A stretch of DNA of 7,990 bases from Chloroflexota bacterium (GTDB lineage Bacteria; Chloroflexota; Anaerolineae; UBA3071): contig JACNHM010000200.1 of the NCBI GenBank assembly GCA_014383605.1, positions 1 through 7,990 on the forward strand. The letters are read 5' to 3'. The translations under genes were made by a program, and so were the position numbers. This document shows positions 226-7,888 of this stretch, piece by piece (position 1 is the first letter of the stretch; every line of letters starts with the position of its first letter). The notes under the pieces are model-generated. The model had not been told where the DNA came from. It did no database searches and was given only the letters and a program-made list of their open reading frames with translations.

Positions 226-1638
226 TTACTCCTCATCGCAATCTTCCAGCACCGCAGCCCGTCCGCAGCGGCGGGGCAGCCCCAGGTCGAAGGCCGCCTG
301 CACGAAGCGGCGGTGCAATTCCTGCGCCTGGGCCTCGTCGTGCTGATCCAGGGGCAAGGGCGGCGGTGGTGGCCAGTCCCACAGGCAGGCCCCGTGGGCG
401 TTCATGTAGGCTGCCAGCAGGCTGCGCAGGTTGGCGGCCATCAGCTCGACGATGGTGAAAAACGACCTGGCCACGCCCTCCAGGGAGTGCATGACGATGA
501 CACCATCCTGGAGGACGGCGAAGCGCTCACATGCGCTGTCCAAAATCCACCAGGATCCGTCTGTGGATACCCTGTGCAGAACCCCCAACTGCCCCAACTG
601 ATTGACCACCTTGAAGTTGGCCTGGCCCAGCGCCCACCACCGGGCTTCGGGGAATTGGTTGGTCAACTCCCAGATGTACCAGCCACGATAGTCACGGGGA
701 ATGGGGCCCTTGACCATGCCCCCCAGCATCACCCTCCCCCAGCGCTCCACCATACGTCGCAGGGTGGGGTCCTGCGCAGCGAGACGAGCGTTGGCAATCG
801 CCGTGCGAGCCCTCTCCGGCACGTTGCGGTAGGCCAACCCGCTGAGGCGAACGCCGGCTCGGTCATCCCAGCTCTCCCGCACCTGCCAGACGGGCCAGAA
901 GCGACCCTCGACGCAGAACCCCTCGGCAGCCATGCGCTCGATGTTGTCGTTGGTGGCGGCCTGGTCGCCGATGACATCGTAGGCCGCCCATAGCTCCGGA
1001 TCGGCCAGCTCGATAGCCGCCAGGTAGGTCTGCAGATCATCGGCCCAACGGGGAGCCGTGCCCCGGAAGCGGCGGTAGGCGGCGCTGTCGAAGCCCACGG
1101 ACAGGCGGCGATGCACCGGCCCGAAGACCTCCTCTCTCCCCTTACGCCACGTGACGCCGTCACCACCGTTGGTCTTCACGACGTAGGTGTAGTCGGCGAA
1201 CAGGACAGCGTGCTCGTGGCCCCGAGCTGCCACCCGGTCGCCCAGGCGAGTGCGCTGCTGTAGCACGCCCTGGTCTGGGTGATCCGGCCCGGCCGCTCGC
1301 AGGGCGGTGTCGTAGATGGATCTATCGTTGAGCCCGGCCACACCGAAGGCAGCCCGCTCGCCGGCGTCCCAGACGCTCTGCTGTGTCACACCGGCCGCTC
1401 CGCAGACGGCGTGTTGAATGGCCACCACCTTCTGCGGCCGGTCGAGGCCGGCGAACCCAGCGTGCAGTCCCCGCAGTTGGTTGCCTCGCCCCTCGGTGAC
1501 CAGGCCCAGAGCCGCCGTCTGGTCAAGTTGCCGCAAGCGGCGGTTCTCGTCCAGGCCGGCGACGCCGAGCATGGCACCCGGGACGCGGGCCCGCAGGGTG
1601 GGGTTGAGGTTGCCGGCGATGCCGAGGTTACTGCTCAT
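226..1638 (-). CDS. DpdA/TGT-like putative 7-deazaguanine transglycosylase, 470 aa
   Basis: The central part (about residues 150-385) follows the layout of tRNA-guanine transglycosylase-like proteins of the phage/island DpdA group, which in characterised members exchange guanine for a 7-deazaguanine in DNA. Visible elements are FDSAAYRRFRG with D184 (usually DSGAF, a catalytic Asp), AYDVIGDQAATNDN around D221, the LGGMV strand (305-309), RWWALG (333-338, usually HGLG) and VSTDGSWW with D360 (usually SVDSxSW, second catalytic Asp). The match is by pattern, not by search. Residues 1-145 are Ala/Gly-rich and unexplained; a PPPPPLPL segment (423-430) precedes an acidic tail. The ATG at 1638 is chosen because GGAGG lies at 1653-1649 and it forms an ATGA overlap with the upstream gene; a TTG ten codons earlier is possible. 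No queCDE/folE or other dpd genes are in view, so substrate and activity are inferred. Confidence 0.6.
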   Translation of the reverse strand: MSSNLGIAGNLNPTLRARVPGAMLGVAGLDENRRLRQLDQTAALGLVTEGRGNQLRGLHAGFAGLDRPQKVVAIQHAVCGAAGVTQQSVWDAGERAAFGVAGLNDRSIYDTALRAAGPDHPDQGVLQQRTRLGDRVAARGHEHAVLFADYTYVVKTNGGDGVTWRKGREEVFGPVHRRLSVGFDSAAYRRFRGTAPRWADDLQTYLAAIELADPELWAAYDVIGDQAATNDNIERMAAEGFCVEGRFWPVWQVRESWDDRAGVRLSGLAYRNVPERARTAIANARLAAQDPTLRRMVERWGRVMLGGMVKGPIPRDYRGWYIWELTNQFPEARWWALGQANFKVVNQLGQLGVLHRVSTDGSWWILDSACERFAVLQDGVIVMHSLEGVARSFFTIVELMAANLRSLLAAYMNAHGACLWDWPPPPPLPLDQHDEAQAQELHRRFVQAAFDLGLPRRCGRAAVLEDCDEE

Positions 1639-1913
1639 CCCTGCCCTTCCTCCGTCGGCGACCAACAACAGCCTGCAGGCTGTCGTTCGTCGGCTCCTCT
1701 GCTCCCCTGCGCCTCGGCGCCCTTGCCCCCTTGCTCCACCGCCAGGTGGTCGCAGATCTCGGCGTGTGCCTCGTCGATCCGGTCGGCCAACGAGTTGCTT
1801 TCGTCCACATCCAGCACGCCGGATTCGGGCGAGAGGCGGTCGGCCAGCAGGCCGCTCCAGACGGCCATGCTCCGTGCCCGTTCGGCCAGGTGTTGTCGGG
1901 TAGCGTCATTCAC
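1635..1913 (-). CDS. Uncharacterised 92-residue protein
   Basis: The start is the GTG at 1913-1911, which overlaps the upstream TGA (GTGA) and has GGAG eight bases before it. The stop forms an ATGA overlap with the DpdA-like gene. Longer starts up to 1985 would overlap the upstream gene heavily. The N-terminal half (to about residue 58) is polar and probably helical: NDATRQHLAERARSM, then LADRIDEAHAEICDHL. The C-terminal 30 residues are low-complexity Gly/Ala/Glu/Gln with a CCW motif. No family is recognised. Coupling on both sides suggests its product is needed in proportion to its neighbours. Confidence 0.6.
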   Translation of the reverse strand: MNDATRQHLAERARSMAVWSGLLADRLSPESGVLDVDESNSLADRIDEAHAEICDHLAVEQGGKGAEAQGSRGADERQPAGCCWSPTEEGQG

Positions 1914-3986: not shown

Positions 3987-4094
3987 CCTGTAGACAAGTA
4001 CCAACAGGAAAAACCAACCTGTAGAAATCTCATCAAAAGAAAAGCCACCCTATGTGGCTGTCTCGTTCAAAACTGGGACGATTGGTTCTACAGG
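3987..4094. repeat. Three copies of CCTGTAGA in direct and inverted orientation
   Basis: CCTGTAGA occurs at 3987-3994 and again at 4018-4025 (direct, 31 bases apart). The inverted form TTCTACAGG occurs at 4086-4094, pairing with CCTGTAGAA at 4018-4026 across the terminator. The first copy abuts the -35 box of the operon promoter. They may be binding sites for a second regulator, for example the neighbouring triple helix-turn-helix protein; this is inference. Confidence 0.35.
4034..4059 (-). terminator. Rho-independent terminator after the helix-turn-helix gene
   Basis: On the minus strand AGCCAC (4059-4054), a five-base loop, and GTGGCT (4048-4043) are followed by TTTCTTTTG. The stop of the upstream minus-strand gene is at 4090-4088, about 30 bases before the hairpin. 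It separates that transcript from the operon promoter at 3984-3956. Confidence 0.65.
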
Positions 4095-4654
4095 GTTTGC
4101 GGCAAAACGCCGCGTCCTTTCCGCATACCTAGCATGTCTGCCAAAAGACGTGCATAGGCCACATCTGCTTCATCCATCTCTAGTAGCTTTGGTCCTCGTC
4201 GTAAAATGCGAATGCGTCCCGAATGAGCCCAACGAGATAACGTCGGGTTTGGTATTCCATACTTCTCTTCTGCTTTGGTCAGCCGTATGGGTCTCCCCTC
4301 CAGATGGGCAAAGCGGTTCCGGCTGACCTTTCTGGCCAGCTCCTGCACGTCCTGCTCCACCACCAGAGGGAAACCGTCAGAAGCCCCGCGCCGGACGCGG
4401 CCTTCCTCGACGAAGCGCCCCAGCACGCCTTCCGGTATGTTGTATCGCCTCGCTGCTTCAGCCGGCGTGATCAGCCGAGGGAGAGAAGTATCACCTTGGG
4501 CCATCTGTCTTACGTCCGCTTCTTTCAACAAGAGTTTGCCATCAAGCCGCCCCGCGGTGATTGTACCATCGTTCGCCCAGCCCGTCAACTGCATGACGTC
4601 CAGGTTATAGGCACTGGCTGCTTCCTCCAAAGTGATGAATCTGTCAAGGGACAT
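4088..4654 (-). CDS. Triple helix-turn-helix (excisionase/MerR-like) DNA-binding protein, 188 aa
   Basis: Three successive modules share one pattern: an I/LT-x-x-EAA-x-x-YNI-type helix pair, a W/F recognition segment, a basic hairpin, and an xxDV helix. They span about residues 6-53 (ITLEEAASAYNLDVMQLTGWANDG...EADVRQMA), 61-109 (ITPAEAARRYNIPEGVLGRFVEEG...EQDVQELA) and 123-175 (IRLTKAEEKYGIPNPTLSRWAHSG...EADVAYARLL). Single modules of this kind are the DNA-binding part of excisionases and MerR-type regulators; here three are strung together without an effector domain. The ATG at 4654 has GGAGAGG six bases upstream; the open frame continues to a TTG at 4681 that lacks such a site. The gene follows the DUF3267-like gene by 49 bases and ends at a terminator. 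Its targets are unknown. Confidence 0.75.
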   Translation of the reverse strand: MSLDRFITLEEAASAYNLDVMQLTGWANDGTITAGRLDGKLLLKEADVRQMAQGDTSLPRLITPAEAARRYNIPEGVLGRFVEEGRVRRGASDGFPLVVEQDVQELARKVSRNRFAHLEGRPIRLTKAEEKYGIPNPTLSRWAHSGRIRILRRGPKLLEMDEADVAYARLLADMLGMRKGRGVLPQTL

Positions 4655-4703
4655 GGGGCACCTCTCCGTCTTACCTTGCAACTCGGTTTGCTAATTCCAG
4701 CGC

Positions 4704-5207
4704 TCAGATATATGATAGGCCCGAGTGAATGACACAGAGTCCGTGCTCACTCTCGCGTACGAGGTCGCCGGGTTCCCGAAGCACGCGCACAATGTCAACG
4801 AGATCTCCTGCCGATCCAGAGAGCAAGACAGGCATCCCTATCAGCCAGACCAAGACAGACGGCAGTCTCAGTGATAACGCTGTGTAGAGGATCACGACGG
4901 CCAAGGCTGGCAGGACGGCCGCTATCAACCAGGCTCGCTTCTCCACATCGGCATCAACATATGTAGAAAGCAGTTTCTTTCTTATGAATCTTCTGTCTAT
5001 ACCCACGGCGCTGAAGCCGAGCGCGTGCAAGGTTTCATGCAATGGCACGTACACAAACAGCGCCAGCATCGCAGTAAGAAGTGGGTATATTGCTCTCAAT
5101 ACACATGCGGTCACGAGCGCTACAGCACAGGTGACTGCAGCGATAGCTATCTCGTAGCTTTTTCGCTTCCGGTCTCGCAGATTGGGGGAGGGTTGTACGG
5201 TGGTCAT
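4704..5207 (-). CDS. DUF3267-like integral membrane zinc-metalloprotease
   Basis: The sequence shows VPLHETLHALGF with a metalloprotease HExxH (H57, E58, H61 from the 5207 start) at the end of a hydrophobic segment, then transmembrane-like stretches at about 92-112 and 116-131. GSAGDLVDIVRVLREPGDLVRES follows, whose early Asp (D135) and GDL motif match the DUF3267 group of putative zincin peptidases. The length (167 aa) is normal for that group. N-terminal helices lie at 19-40 and 42-54. The substrate is unknown. Start choice is uncertain: ATG 5207, ATG 5234 and GTG 5243 all lack a clear ribosome site. Its 5' end faces, and probably overlaps, a broken plus-strand gene. It may be co-transcribed with the helix-turn-helix gene downstream. 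Confidence 0.7.
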   Translation of the reverse strand: MTTVQPSPNLRDRKRKSYEIAIAAVTCAVALVTACVLRAIYPLLTAMLALFVYVPLHETLHALGFSAVGIDRRFIRKKLLSTYVDADVEKRAWLIAAVLPALAVVILYTALSLRLPSVLVWLIGMPVLLSGSAGDLVDIVRVLREPGDLVRESEHGLCVIHSGLSYI

Positions 5208-5622
5208 TCGGATAACTCGGGACGGAATAGACATCTCGACCACAGCGTTCGCTGTTCTGTAGTGCTGTGGCGCTCTCCTGACCGGCCTCGTCGGGCTCTA
5301 TGTCTTAAACTTAGACGGCAAGCCTGAAGCAGACTGGATAGTGGTCTCTCTGGGCGTTGTCATTGTCCTGGGTGCGCAGGTTCACCACGGGGTGTGTCCT
5401 GACCCGGGGACTGCTCATGGCTCCCTCAACAGGATTCACTATAACAGGCTCTGGTGGATAGTCAAAGCCTGGCTGATAGCAGGCATAGTCCTGGCCATCC
5501 CCGGCGTTCTCTTGTGGCACGTCCCGCTCGCCTTGTACGTGTGGACGTATCCGGTGGTGACTGTTGGGCCCTTGCTTGTCGCATTCGTCTATGCTGCGAT
5601 TCCTCCTCAGTCGGAGGACTAG
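5200..5622 (+). pseudogene. Four-helix membrane protein gene with an in-frame TAG
   Basis: A GTG at 5200 has GGGGAGGG seven bases upstream and opens the frame VIRITRDGIDISTTAFAVL, then TAG at 5260-5262, then CCGALLTGLVGLYVLNLDG, and stays open to TAG at 5620. The first hydrophobic helix would run straight through the amber codon. Further hydrophobic segments are WIVVSLGVVIVLGAQ, WLIAGIVLAIPGVLLW and LALYVWTYPVVTVGPLLVAFVYAAI. No ATG, GTG or TTG follows the TAG in frame until GTG 5341, which would lose the first helix. Reading it as one gene with a nonsense mutation fits best; a shorter gene from 5341 (93 aa) is the alternative. No family is recognised. Its 5' end overlaps the start of the minus-strand DUF3267 gene. 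Confidence 0.45.
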
Positions 5623-5639
5623 AGACCTCCCGTATTCTT

Positions 5640-5740
5640 CTTCTCGTTCTCACTTCAGAAGTTGTCTTGGTGGGGGTTCCCCGCCCCTGGCCGGTGCTCA
5701 AAGCCAGTCTCCGCCAGTGAGCTTCGGTTTGTTGGCGATG
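5640..5740 (+). repeat. Upstream partial copy of the ncRNA 3' module
   Basis: This stretch parallels 6138-6249: GTTGTC (5661), GGGGGTTCCCC (about 5672-5682), CCGG-NNCNCAAA, and an 11-bp hairpin with a TTCG loop (5712-5722/5727-5737). Its counterpart is 6212-6223/6228-6239. All pairs hold in the plus-strand RNA when G-U pairs are counted, so the RNA polarity is plus. It lies before the promoter of the main RNA and could be the 3' end of an older or truncated tandem copy. The remaining bases 5623-5639 and 5741-5763 show nothing else. Confidence 0.5.
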
Positions 5741-5763
5741 CCTGGTTTAGCCACTCACTCGCC

Positions 5764-5792
5764 TTGACTATTTCACCCCTTCGTGGTACAAT
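5764..5792 (+). promoter_or_regulatory. Sigma70-type promoter of the putative structured RNA
   Basis: TTGACT (5764-5769), exactly 17 bases, then TACAAT (5787-5792): each box is one base off consensus. The expected start is near 5799. No convincing ORF with a ribosome site begins downstream, which points to a noncoding transcript. Confidence 0.7.
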
Positions 5793-5960
5793 CGGTGTCA
5801 GTCTGGATGCAAGCCGCAGGTGGGAAAACCGTTGCTGCCGCGGACAGCAGCGGGGCGTCACATGTTCCTCTCGCCATCACGAGAGGTCGTCACAGGCCCC
5901 CTCCCGCTTCGTCGAGCGGAGTTCGTCTTCGGCACTCTCCTCTCGGAAAGGCTCGTCGCA

Positions 5961-6177
5961 TGATGGGGGTTCCCCACCTACGGCCTACGCACCCCAGAAC
6001 TACCTGTTTGGGTGCAAGACGCAGGCGGGGACCGCTGTCTCCATCCTGGCTACAGCGGGTTGTCCGAAAAGCCCCTGCCGAAACAGGGGGTTGTCTTCTC
6101 CCGGTTCTTGTCTCCAGGTCTCTCAGCCGAAGCTGAGGTTGTCTATTGATGGGAGAGTTCCCCGCCTACGGCCTACG
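5961..6177 (+). repeat. Internal direct repeat within the putative RNA
   Basis: About 28 bases starting TGATGGG at 5961 recur at 6148 with few changes: GGGGGTTCCCCACC / GGGAGAGTTCCCCGCC, each followed by TACGGCCTACG (5979-5989 and 6166-6176). The copies are about 187 bases apart. Both include CCTACGG in tandem. Only the copies' cores repeat; the DNA between them differs. Confidence 0.6.
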
Positions 6178-6211
6178 GAAGTGTCACCTTCCCGGCACCC
6201 AAACCCAGGCC

Positions 6212-6249
6212 CCGCCAGTGGACTTCGGTCTGCTGGCGGTGTCTCTTTT
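6212..6249 (+). terminator. Rho-independent terminator of the putative RNA
   Basis: A 12-bp stem (6212-6223 with 6228-6239, two G-U pairs) has a C(TTCG)G tetraloop and is followed by TGTCTCTTTTG. It ends 12 bases before the convergent tRNA-Gly remnant. Confidence 0.65.
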
Positions 6250-6260
6250 GTGGCTATAGG

Positions 6261-6431
6261 AGCGGGTGATGGGACTCGAACCCACGACATACAGCTTCTC
6301 AGTAGATCCAAATTCTGTGCTCCAGGCCGGTCCGTGACCCGCCCTGCGATGGGTCACGGACCCGTCGTGAGCGGAAACTTGGATCTGCTGAGCTTGGGAA
6401 GCTGTTGTCTATACACACAAAAATCGCCCGG
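6261..6431 (-). pseudogene. tRNA-Gly(CCC) interrupted in the anticodon loop, 5' half degenerate
   Basis: The 3' half is a good tRNA-Gly: anticodon-stem strand GCTGT (6295-6291), variable loop, T arm GTGGG-TTCGAGT-CCCAT, acceptor strand CACCCGC (6268-6262) and discriminator T (6261), the usual base for bacterial tRNA-Gly. No CCA is encoded (CCT follows). The matching ACAGC-TTCCCAA loop, with anticodon CCC, lies at 6405-6394. Between them is a 95-bp palindromic insert flanked by AAG. Removing insert and one AAG gives exactly 73 bases with a perfect anticodon stem. The 26 bases 5' of ACAGC have tRNA spacing but weak pairing: 5 of 7 acceptor pairs and a T-rich D stem at best. It is therefore probably a decayed gene. 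An unusual intron-bearing tRNA is the alternative. Confidence 0.6.
6298..6392. mobile_element. 95-bp foldback (MITE-like) insert in tRNA-Gly
   Basis: The insert is one long imperfect palindrome: arms 6298-6340 and 6351-6392 around a 10-base loop. The ends are CTCAGTAGATCCAA and, on the other strand, CTCAGCAGATCCAA. The inner arm is a perfect 12-bp GGTCCGTGACCC / GGGTCACGGACC. AAG (minus strand) borders both sides, as a 3-bp target duplication would. It encodes nothing. It could be a miniature inverted-repeat element moved by a transposase elsewhere. A structured tRNA intron is possible, because the ambiguous junction includes the 37/38 position. Confidence 0.6.
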
Positions 6432-6483
6432 TGGACACGCTGAACGCTGCGATGCTCAATGATGGACATTTTGTCCGTCATAG

Positions 6484-6556
6484 TGAGCCGCATAGGAGTC
6501 GAACCTATAACCCACGGATTAAGAGTCCGTTGCTCTGCCAGTTGAGCTAGCGGCCC
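6484..6556 (-). tRNA. tRNA-Lys (anticodon CTT)
   Basis: The full cloverleaf is visible on the minus strand: acceptor GGGCCGC / GCGGCTC, D stem GCTC / GAGC, anticodon stem ACGGA / TCCGT with loop CTCTTAA (anticodon CTT), T arm ATAGG-TTCGACT-CCTAT, discriminator A at 6484. The length is 73 bases. CCA is not encoded, so it must be added after transcription. It lies 52 bases upstream of the tRNA-Gly remnant on the same strand, probably as one tRNA transcript. Confidence 0.95.
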
Positions 6557-6567
6557 AGACGTCACAC

Positions 6568-6595
6568 ATTATACCAGGGATACTTTTTTTGTCAA
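6568..6595 (-). promoter_or_regulatory. Consensus promoter of tRNA-Lys
   Basis: On the minus strand TTGACA (6595-6590), 16 bases containing an A-run, then TATAAT (6573-6568). The expected start is about 5 bases before the tRNA 5' end at 6556. Confidence 0.85.
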
Positions 6596-6663
6596 ACTGA
6601 ACAAGGCGGCGCTCGAATTCGGCGATCCGTGTACAGCGAAGCCTGTGGGCGAAGGAACTTCTT

Positions 6664-7842
6664 ATGCGACGACCAATATCTCATCCAAGTGCAGTTCGTG
6701 CGAGCCTGCTGCTCACTATTTGTGCTCTGCTTCTCGGATGCGGCAAGGCTGTTGACGCTCCCACTGTCGCTCCACTGGAGGCGGAGATCGTATCCCCGAC
6801 TCCAGTGGTTGTGCTGCCTGTGTCGCCATCGTCCACGGTCACCGCGACGCCTTCGCCTGCCACGCCTACTCCAACACCGGCGCACACGCGCCCGTTGCCC
6901 ACGCGCACTCCGACAGCTACGGCGACTGCCATGCCGCCGATGCTCACGCCCACAGTCACACCTACGCCCTCGGCTACGGCGATGCCCTCGCCTTCGCCCA
7001 CTGCGACGGCGCGTCCGCCAACGGCTACGCCTGTTCCTATCCAGCCTGGCCAACGGTGGCCCACGGCGGACGCCGCACAGGCCACGGATCACTACTGGCT
7101 GGCTCGTCCCTTCGGCCCCGATGCCCGACAGTGGGCTGATCCCATCTATCTCTACGGCTCCACCGCCCGGGGGCGCTTCCGCACCCACCACGGCGTGGAC
7201 ATCCCCAACCCCCTGGGCACGCCGGTGCTGGCCGCCGCTCCTGCGACCGTGCTCTTCGCTGGCGGCGACTCGGAAGTGATCTTTGGCCCCTACCCCGACT
7301 TCTACGGCCAGCTCATCATTCTGCGGCTCGATGAGCGCTATCATGATCAGCCCCTCTACGTCCTCTACGGCCATCTCTCGGCGATCCATGTGCGGGAGGG
7401 AGAGCACGTGGTCCGCGGACAACCTATCGCTGCCGTGGGCATGACCGGCATCGCCATGGGGCCGCACCTGCATCTGGAGGTGCGTCTGGGGGCCAACAGC
7501 TACGAAAGCACGTGCAATCCAGGACTGTGGCTGGAACCACTGCCGGGGTACGGCACTCTCGCTGGGCGGCTGATCGACGCCGAAGGGCGCACACTCCCGG
7601 AGACGTCTGTGCTGATCTATCGTAGCGAAGACGCGGAGCACCTCTGGCGAGTCGCCCCTGTCTATGCTGCCGATCCGGGGATTCACCCCGATGACCAGTG
7701 GGGCGAGAACTTCTTACTTGCCGATGTGCCCGCGGGGCGCTACCGCCTGGCCGCCAGGGTGGATGGGCGGGTCGTCAGCCAACAGGTGGTCGTTGAGGTG
7801 GGCAAGACGACGTTCGCTGATCTGGCCCCCGAGCAGGAATGA
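6664..7842 (+). CDS. Lipoprotein M23 (LytM-type) metallopeptidase, 392 aa
   Basis: M23 enzymes are zinc endopeptidases that cut peptidoglycan cross-bridges. A basic start (MRRP) and hydrophobic segment end in the lipobox LLGC, so C26 should carry lipid and anchor the protein outside the membrane. Residues about 31-126 are a Thr/Pro/Ala linker (TPTPTP, TATATA). The M23 domain spans about 145-290: HHGVDI (H175 and D179 as zinc ligands), LYVLYGHLSAIHVREGEHV (H237), VGMTG and GPHLHLEV (H268, H270). The full catalytic set is present, so it should be active rather than a pseudoenzyme. Residues about 296-385 (LAGRLIDAEGRTLPETSVLIY...VPAGRYRLAARVDG) look like a carboxypeptidase-regulatory or Ig-like beta domain. 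The ATG is supported by AAGGA seven bases upstream. It stands alone; no plus-strand promoter was clear in 6596-6660. Confidence 0.9.
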   Translation: MRRPISHPSAVRASLLLTICALLLGCGKAVDAPTVAPLEAEIVSPTPVVVLPVSPSSTVTATPSPATPTPTPAHTRPLPTRTPTATATAMPPMLTPTVTPTPSATAMPSPSPTATARPPTATPVPIQPGQRWPTADAAQATDHYWLARPFGPDARQWADPIYLYGSTARGRFRTHHGVDIPNPLGTPVLAAAPATVLFAGGDSEVIFGPYPDFYGQLIILRLDERYHDQPLYVLYGHLSAIHVREGEHVVRGQPIAAVGMTGIAMGPHLHLEVRLGANSYESTCNPGLWLEPLPGYGTLAGRLIDAEGRTLPETSVLIYRSEDAEHLWRVAPVYAADPGIHPDDQWGENFLLADVPAGRYRLAARVDGRVVSQQVVVEVGKTTFADLAPEQE

Positions 7843-7888
7843 TGCCTGGGTTACCTGCCTCTCCTGCGCAAAAACTGTTTTTGGACAC

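Follow-up and report, generated by a model that had tools for sequence, protein, structure and literature searches.

Within the window, the whole 7,990-nt stretch of DNA that was analyzed, the region from a predicted promoter at 5764 to a predicted terminator ending at 6250 probably holds a new orphan structured RNA gene with an internal duplication. At the sequence level the duplication is clear, because two homologous tandem domains of about 200 nt each make up the stretch. The reading that we favor, at a probability of roughly 0.45, is a stand-alone structured noncoding RNA gene of about 450 nt on the plus strand, with a duplicated domain and with repeated hairpins that would act as docking sites. 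A new structured noncoding RNA with its own promoter and terminator had been proposed in a preliminary description; the structure, the lack of a protein frame and the lack of a known family speak for it, while the plus-strand pairing is half supported. The features are as follows.

226-1668, minus strand: gene for a 480-aa protein
4088-4681, minus strand: gene for a 197-aa HTH protein with several HTH/excisionase-like domains
5650-5748, plus strand: U1, an incomplete copy of the 3' end lying upstream; its hairpin at 5711-5738 is degenerate and terminator-like
5764-5792, plus strand: promoter from the consensus scan (10/12), TTGACT-17-TACAAT with TG before the -10 element (extended -10)
5799-6001, drawn on the plus strand, strand unsettled: domain D1, from folding and alignment of the copies; closing helices P0 5803-5810/5989-5997 and P1 5815-5824/5973-5982; hairpins Ha1 5829-5853, Hb1 5867-5886, Hc1 5901-5921 and Hd1 5935-5950
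5887-6143, plus strand: YYGTC sites 1-3 nt after hairpins, at 5887, 5923, 5953, 6060, 6091 and 6139
6006-6204, drawn on the plus strand, strand unsettled: domain D2, tandem homologue of D1, from folding and alignment of the copies; closing helices P0 6006-6015/6195-6204 and P1 6020-6031/6159-6170; hairpins Ha2 6032-6058, Hb2 6072-6089, Hd2 6122-6137 and an extra one at 6177-6192
6212-6250, plus strand: intrinsic terminator from the consensus scan, with a 12-bp stem at 6212-6239, a cUUCGg loop and a T-rich tail
6258-6407, minus strand: tRNA-Gly(CCC) remnant (anticodon arm through 3' end), interrupted at 6297-6392 by a palindrome

Boundaries, domains and pairing

The near-consensus promoter and the 12-bp UUCG-capped terminator that had been described were both recovered by the consensus scan, and the distance between them predicts an RNA of about 450 nt. 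Judged from the sequence, the transcript would start near 5800, and the outermost D1 pair begins at this expected start. Over 4600-6660 the scan gave 4 promoter-like sites, among them the 12/12 site of tRNA-Lys, and 9 terminator-like sites; in shuffles the numbers were 0.8 (mean) and 1.4. At least nine hairpins had been counted earlier, and the plus-strand MFE structure of 5796-6250 contains 10 whose stems run for 3 or more pairs without a break.

Both domains start with UGGxUGCAAG followed by the 5' arm of P1 (CGCAGGYGGG), both finish with its 3' arm (CCCRCCUACGGCCUACG), and the order P0-P1-Ha-Hb is common to them. Their local alignment scores 43 against a maximum of 27 over 1000 shuffles; U1 and the 3' end score 46, again against 27, and are 75% identical between 5686-5748 and 6187-6249. 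The modeled arrangement of closing helices and hairpins is supported by folding and by comparison between the copies, with Hc1 and Hd1 drawn by hand and differing in the plus MFE structure. The segments 5664-5690, 5957-5985 and 6144-6173 each fold alone into a short G-rich/C-rich hairpin. All three copies would compete with the P1 3' arm, making a conformational switch possible.

Set against dinucleotide shuffles, 5764-6249 folds with z-scores of -5.04 on the plus and -7.25 on the minus strand, and none of 100 shuffles was as good on either strand; for 5796-6250 the values are -4.5 and -6.65. In the same order, D1 gives -3.5 and -5.9, D2 -3.85 and -5.5, and the terminator region (6207-6250) -5.5 and -3.2. 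Two coding controls from inside long frames of the window lay between -0.3 and +0.1, and a third control, the flank 5341-5630 with a small ORF, gave -1.27 and -2.69. Taken alone, the inner hairpin parts are weak (-1.59 and -2.44 for D1, -2.57 and -2.19 for D2) and U1 is no better than shuffles (-1.18 and +0.11), so that the closing helices and the terminator carry most of the folding signal.

The comparative evidence comes from the internal duplicates only and covers 43 homologous pairs in hand-picked helices (8 in P0, 10 in P1, 7 in Ha, 6 in Hb and 12 in the terminator). Elements that lack a clear counterpart were left out (Hc, Hd, the hairpin 6177-6192, one Hb1 pair, two Ha1 pairs and the outer P0 pairs), as were 8 further positions of the P1 register, where P1 was stopped at 10 pairs and the first positions overlap P0. 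Unchanged between the copies are 30 Watson-Crick pairs, 2 G-U pairs and 1 A.C; all 5 double changes keep Watson-Crick pairing and none breaks it, and the one-sided changes exchange Watson-Crick for G-U in 3 cases and for A.C in 2. Under simulated independent changes, five compensated doubles have a probability of 5e-6, or 1.25e-4 with transition bias, figures that flatter the model since Ha was aligned by structure and the helices were chosen by the analyst. Among the 8 omitted P1 positions, none is changed on both sides, 2 are A.C in both copies, and at 2 (5814/5983 and 5825/5972) a one-sided change costs one copy its pair. A plain MAFFT alignment gave 2 doubly changed pairs, a number that 115 of 500 shuffles reach and that is not significant with two sequences. 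In the terminator hairpin, one compensatory G-C/A-U change separates it from the upstream copy, and two G-U pairs are kept in both.

In 5640-6250 there are 10 YYGTC motifs, where 5.5 are expected from shuffles and 31 of 1000 shuffles reach 10; for TTGTC the count is 5 with 1.0 expected, and 4 of 1000 shuffles reach it. Within 1-3 nt it follows 6 of the 7 drawn hairpins, which none of 100,000 random placements reached, or 6 of 8 once the hairpin 6177-6192 is included. This rule is weakened by the lower counts obtained with MFE hairpins, namely 3 of 10 on the plus strand (random placement as high in 1374 of 100,000) and 4 of 9 on the minus strand (62 of 100,000). Part of the recurrence may come from the duplication of one unit, and the hairpin-YYGTC motif is at most suggestive.

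Protein frame, known families and homologue searches

The earlier statement that the stretch has no credible ORF agrees with our results. One plus frame is open over all 203 codons of 5640-6250, a run that 54 of 1000 shuffles reached; its translation, the one open frame searched, gave 190 candidates in 5.8 billion proteins, none of them a homologue at E <=0.01. With D1-D2 offsets of 205 and 188 bases, the domains would be read in different frames, so the frame is not conserved between the copies. None of the universal bacterial RNAs had been recognized in it earlier, and in an Rfam scan of the window only tRNA-Lys reaches gathering score; 8 weak matches (E 1.1 to 9.9) in a scan of 5600-6480 at E <=10, none near gathering score, were taken as chance. 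GOLLD, ROOL and OLE do not reach the Rfam gathering score and are absent from these 8 matches. A literature search covering, among others, parts of PMC12286853 and PMC2864571 gave no account of this RNA, for which there is no name to search by.

Homologues were sought by BLAST and with a covariance model (R1) in 396 Anaerolineae and 400 Chloroflexota genomes, two partly overlapping sets, as well as in 50,697 phage and 72,556 plasmid records, with three IMG/VR patterns and with the one translated frame; in sets this large, BLAST and model scoring takes in 2 or 6 candidates from each genome, and the model applies the stricter filters. BLAST with 5640-6480 matched 248 of the Anaerolineae genomes at E <=0.01, and among the matches listed all fall on the tRNA-Gly part and the palindrome except one at 6015-6050 in genome G092; the 6015-6050 match (L055, L064) was taken as coding from its letters. 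The query 5640-6250, which is free of the tRNA-Gly part and the palindrome, matched 49 of 396 Anaerolineae at E <=0.05 and 3 of 400 Chloroflexota at E <=0.001. Five BLAST hits (L058, L072, L081, L093 and L094) lie inside frames open for at least 362 aa and were taken as chance; the L060 and L093 loci were read as sequence. Model R1 gave 3 of 396 at E <=0.05 and 1 of 400 at E <=0.01, below the nominal E-value expectation; one match (L095) lies inside a 285-aa ORF with several P1 pairs broken and was rejected, and L089-L091 were inspected by fold and rescored with the model. The three IMG/VR patterns gave 0, 5 and 1 matches, none of which shows the domain (five judged by eye on folds, one by model and sequence), and the phage and plasmid records gave matches of 30-32 bp only, at E 0.6. 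No homologue of the candidate RNA was found in the Anaerolineae, Chloroflexota, phage, plasmid, viral-pattern or translated searches, the BLASTN comparison of 5640-6250 with both genome sets included. This absence is weak evidence, because the sets contain 2 genomes from the nearest relative's order, few candidates were scored per genome and metagenome contigs lie outside the searches.

Surroundings, strand and competing readings

The preliminary description placed tRNA genes on one side of the RNA and an element-like cassette on the other. One tRNA-Lys gene indeed stands on the right, with a perfect 12/12 sigma-70 promoter at 6595-6568 on the minus strand (TTGACA-16-TATAAT), but its companion is the broken tRNA-Gly remnant, whose 5' half is absent or decayed; intact tRNA-Gly(CCC) genes are found at four other loci (L028 to L031). 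The part of a tRNA from the anticodon arm to the 3' end is often the att site for integrases. The palindrome that splits the remnant, about 50 bases beyond the terminator, is an interspersed one of about 95 bp with ends like CTCAGTAGATC, and it recurs in other Anaerolineae (L025, L026, L027). The window has exactly two copies of GTTGTCTAT, one at 6138-6146 after a D2 hairpin and one at 6404-6412 after the tRNA-Gly anticodon-arm remnant; the shuffle mean is 0.03.

Genes for a DUF3267 protein and the excisionase-like HTH protein, together with several ORFs without family matches, occupy the left side of the RNA. The nine closest other relatives of the HTH protein (P0002-P0010; jgi, ena, lgn) are 52-81% identical to it, and the 480-aa protein has no Pfam, PHROGs or NCBIfam match and at least 94 homologues, several named ones being from Chloroflexota; P0026 is 99% identical to it and P0027 78%. 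A PHROGs scan of 10 left-hand ORFs left 9 without a match, none of the window proteins scanned matched an integrase family, and viral contigs held no relative of three window proteins. By the M23 gene, the nearest relative is L001, an Anaerolineae MAG with 71% protein identity; window positions 6483-7848 (tRNA-Lys and the M23 gene) match it at 75.5%, and to the left of this block L001 has a gene that we take to be yvcK-like, where the window has other content. Given the tRNA-Gly remnant, the excisionase-like HTH gene and the ORFs without family matches, there is a fair case for calling the neighborhood element-like, but not yet for calling it a prophage.

It had also been claimed that terminator-type stems have G-U pairs only in the plus-strand reading, a sign of RNA-level pairing. 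The terminator agrees, with 2 G-U pairs and 4 in its upstream copy, and the promoter points the same way, but the main domain helix does not follow this pattern: read on the plus strand, the 18-position P1 register has A.C mismatches at 4 positions in D1 and 3 in D2 and no G-T, and on the minus strand these become G-U pairs. Counting G-U pairs therefore gives opposite answers, plus for the terminator and minus for the domains. A structured RNA on the minus strand, made by read-through from the tRNA-Lys promoter or from an unrecognized promoter while the plus signals serve, for example, the ORF 5341-5622 (+), would explain this helix, the stronger minus-strand folding of both domains, the RNAalifold result on the two copies (-39.2 minus against -31.85 plus) and the better fit of YYGTC to the minus-MFE hairpins, and the perfect tRNA-Lys promoter already faces in its direction. 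Against it, no minus promoter within 5800-6480 and no minus terminator-like site after D1 came out of the consensus scan of 4600-6660, the only minus terminator-like site (6437-6425) lying between tRNA-Lys and the domains, and the terminator hairpin is clearly better on the plus strand. We regard a minus-strand RNA as rather unlikely; because no minus promoter is near and no minus terminator follows the domains, the plus strand is more likely than the minus, without being settled.

Readings in which no RNA is involved seem improbable to us, each to the same degree. If the pairing acted in DNA, an integrative element would have its attachment or replication region here, rich in hairpins and next to the tRNA-Gly att remnant, and proteins would bind at the GTTGTC repeats. 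The two GTTGTCTAT copies that flank the tRNA-Gly 3' part, the excisionase-like protein nearby and the split of wobble-type mismatches into G-T (terminators, Ha1) and A.C (P0, P1), which is expected where no strand is chosen, are in line with such a region. Yet the domains that P0 and P1 close span about 200 nt, which we consider unusual for DNA sites, the terminator hairpins keep G-U pairs and the UUCG loop in two copies, the scanned window proteins have no integrase family match, and the promoter and terminator would be left unexplained. A local accumulation of palindromic hairpin units of the REP/MITE kind, without any function as RNA, would account for hairpins that recur with a shared flanking motif, for the true interspersed palindrome past the terminator and for the failure of U1 alone to fold better than shuffles, but not for hairpin sequences that differ while their pairing is kept, the helix order common to both domains, the promoter and terminator at the edges or the absence of the domain from the other genomes searched.

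Possible function and relation to known RNAs

In the stand-alone RNA that we favor, transcription of the plus strand would be driven by the promoter (5764-5792) and end at the terminator (6212-6239), and the product would be an internal duplication of two domains, in each of which P0 and P1 close a hairpin junction. The repeated hairpins, several of them followed by YYGUC, may be docking sites, and the RNA could work as a protein scaffold or sponge or else assemble with its own copies. Its position beside the tRNA-Gly remnant and near the excisionase-like HTH gene suggests that a mobile element may carry it. That it represents a new ornate RNA family, a covalent pseudo-dimer with a hairpin-YYGUC docking unit, borne by a mobile element of Chloroflexota that sits at a tRNA-Gly gene, and possibly forming a higher-order RNA or RNA-protein particle, is doubtful as a whole.

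CsrB/RsmZ-type sponge RNAs have many hairpins with a repeated short motif, and the candidate shares these traits as a possible way of working. In CsrB-type sponges the motif is GGA in hairpin loops, whereas here GGA stands in the loops of 0 of 10 plus-MFE and 1 of 9 minus-MFE hairpins and the repeat is YYGUC after stems. The resemblance to OLE RNA, compared in general terms only, lies in an elaborate single RNA with many helices, but the candidate has no Rfam match. GOLLD and ROOL are ornate RNAs carried by phages or prophages, frequently in the vicinity of tRNA islands. A likeness to such RNAs had been suggested, and it is one of setting: here too a large candidate structured RNA that lacks a protein frame lies near tRNA sequence, with possibly mobile genes alongside. 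Rfam gives no match to GOLLD or ROOL. According to the parts of PMC12286853 covered, many GOLLD members exceed 800 nt, against about 450 nt here, and GOLLD, ROOL and OLE form homo-oligomeric complexes; a tandem duplicated domain, as found here, is not mentioned for GOLLD or ROOL in the portions of PMC12286853 and PMC2864571 covered.

With its promoter, terminator and internal covariation, the stretch lends itself directly to transcript and probing experiments. If real, the RNA would be a large one outside the known classes, in a Chloroflexota lineage that has been little sampled; its built-in duplication allows two domains to be compared within one molecule, and its repeated hairpins prompt a guess, open to testing, that a protein or another RNA is its partner.
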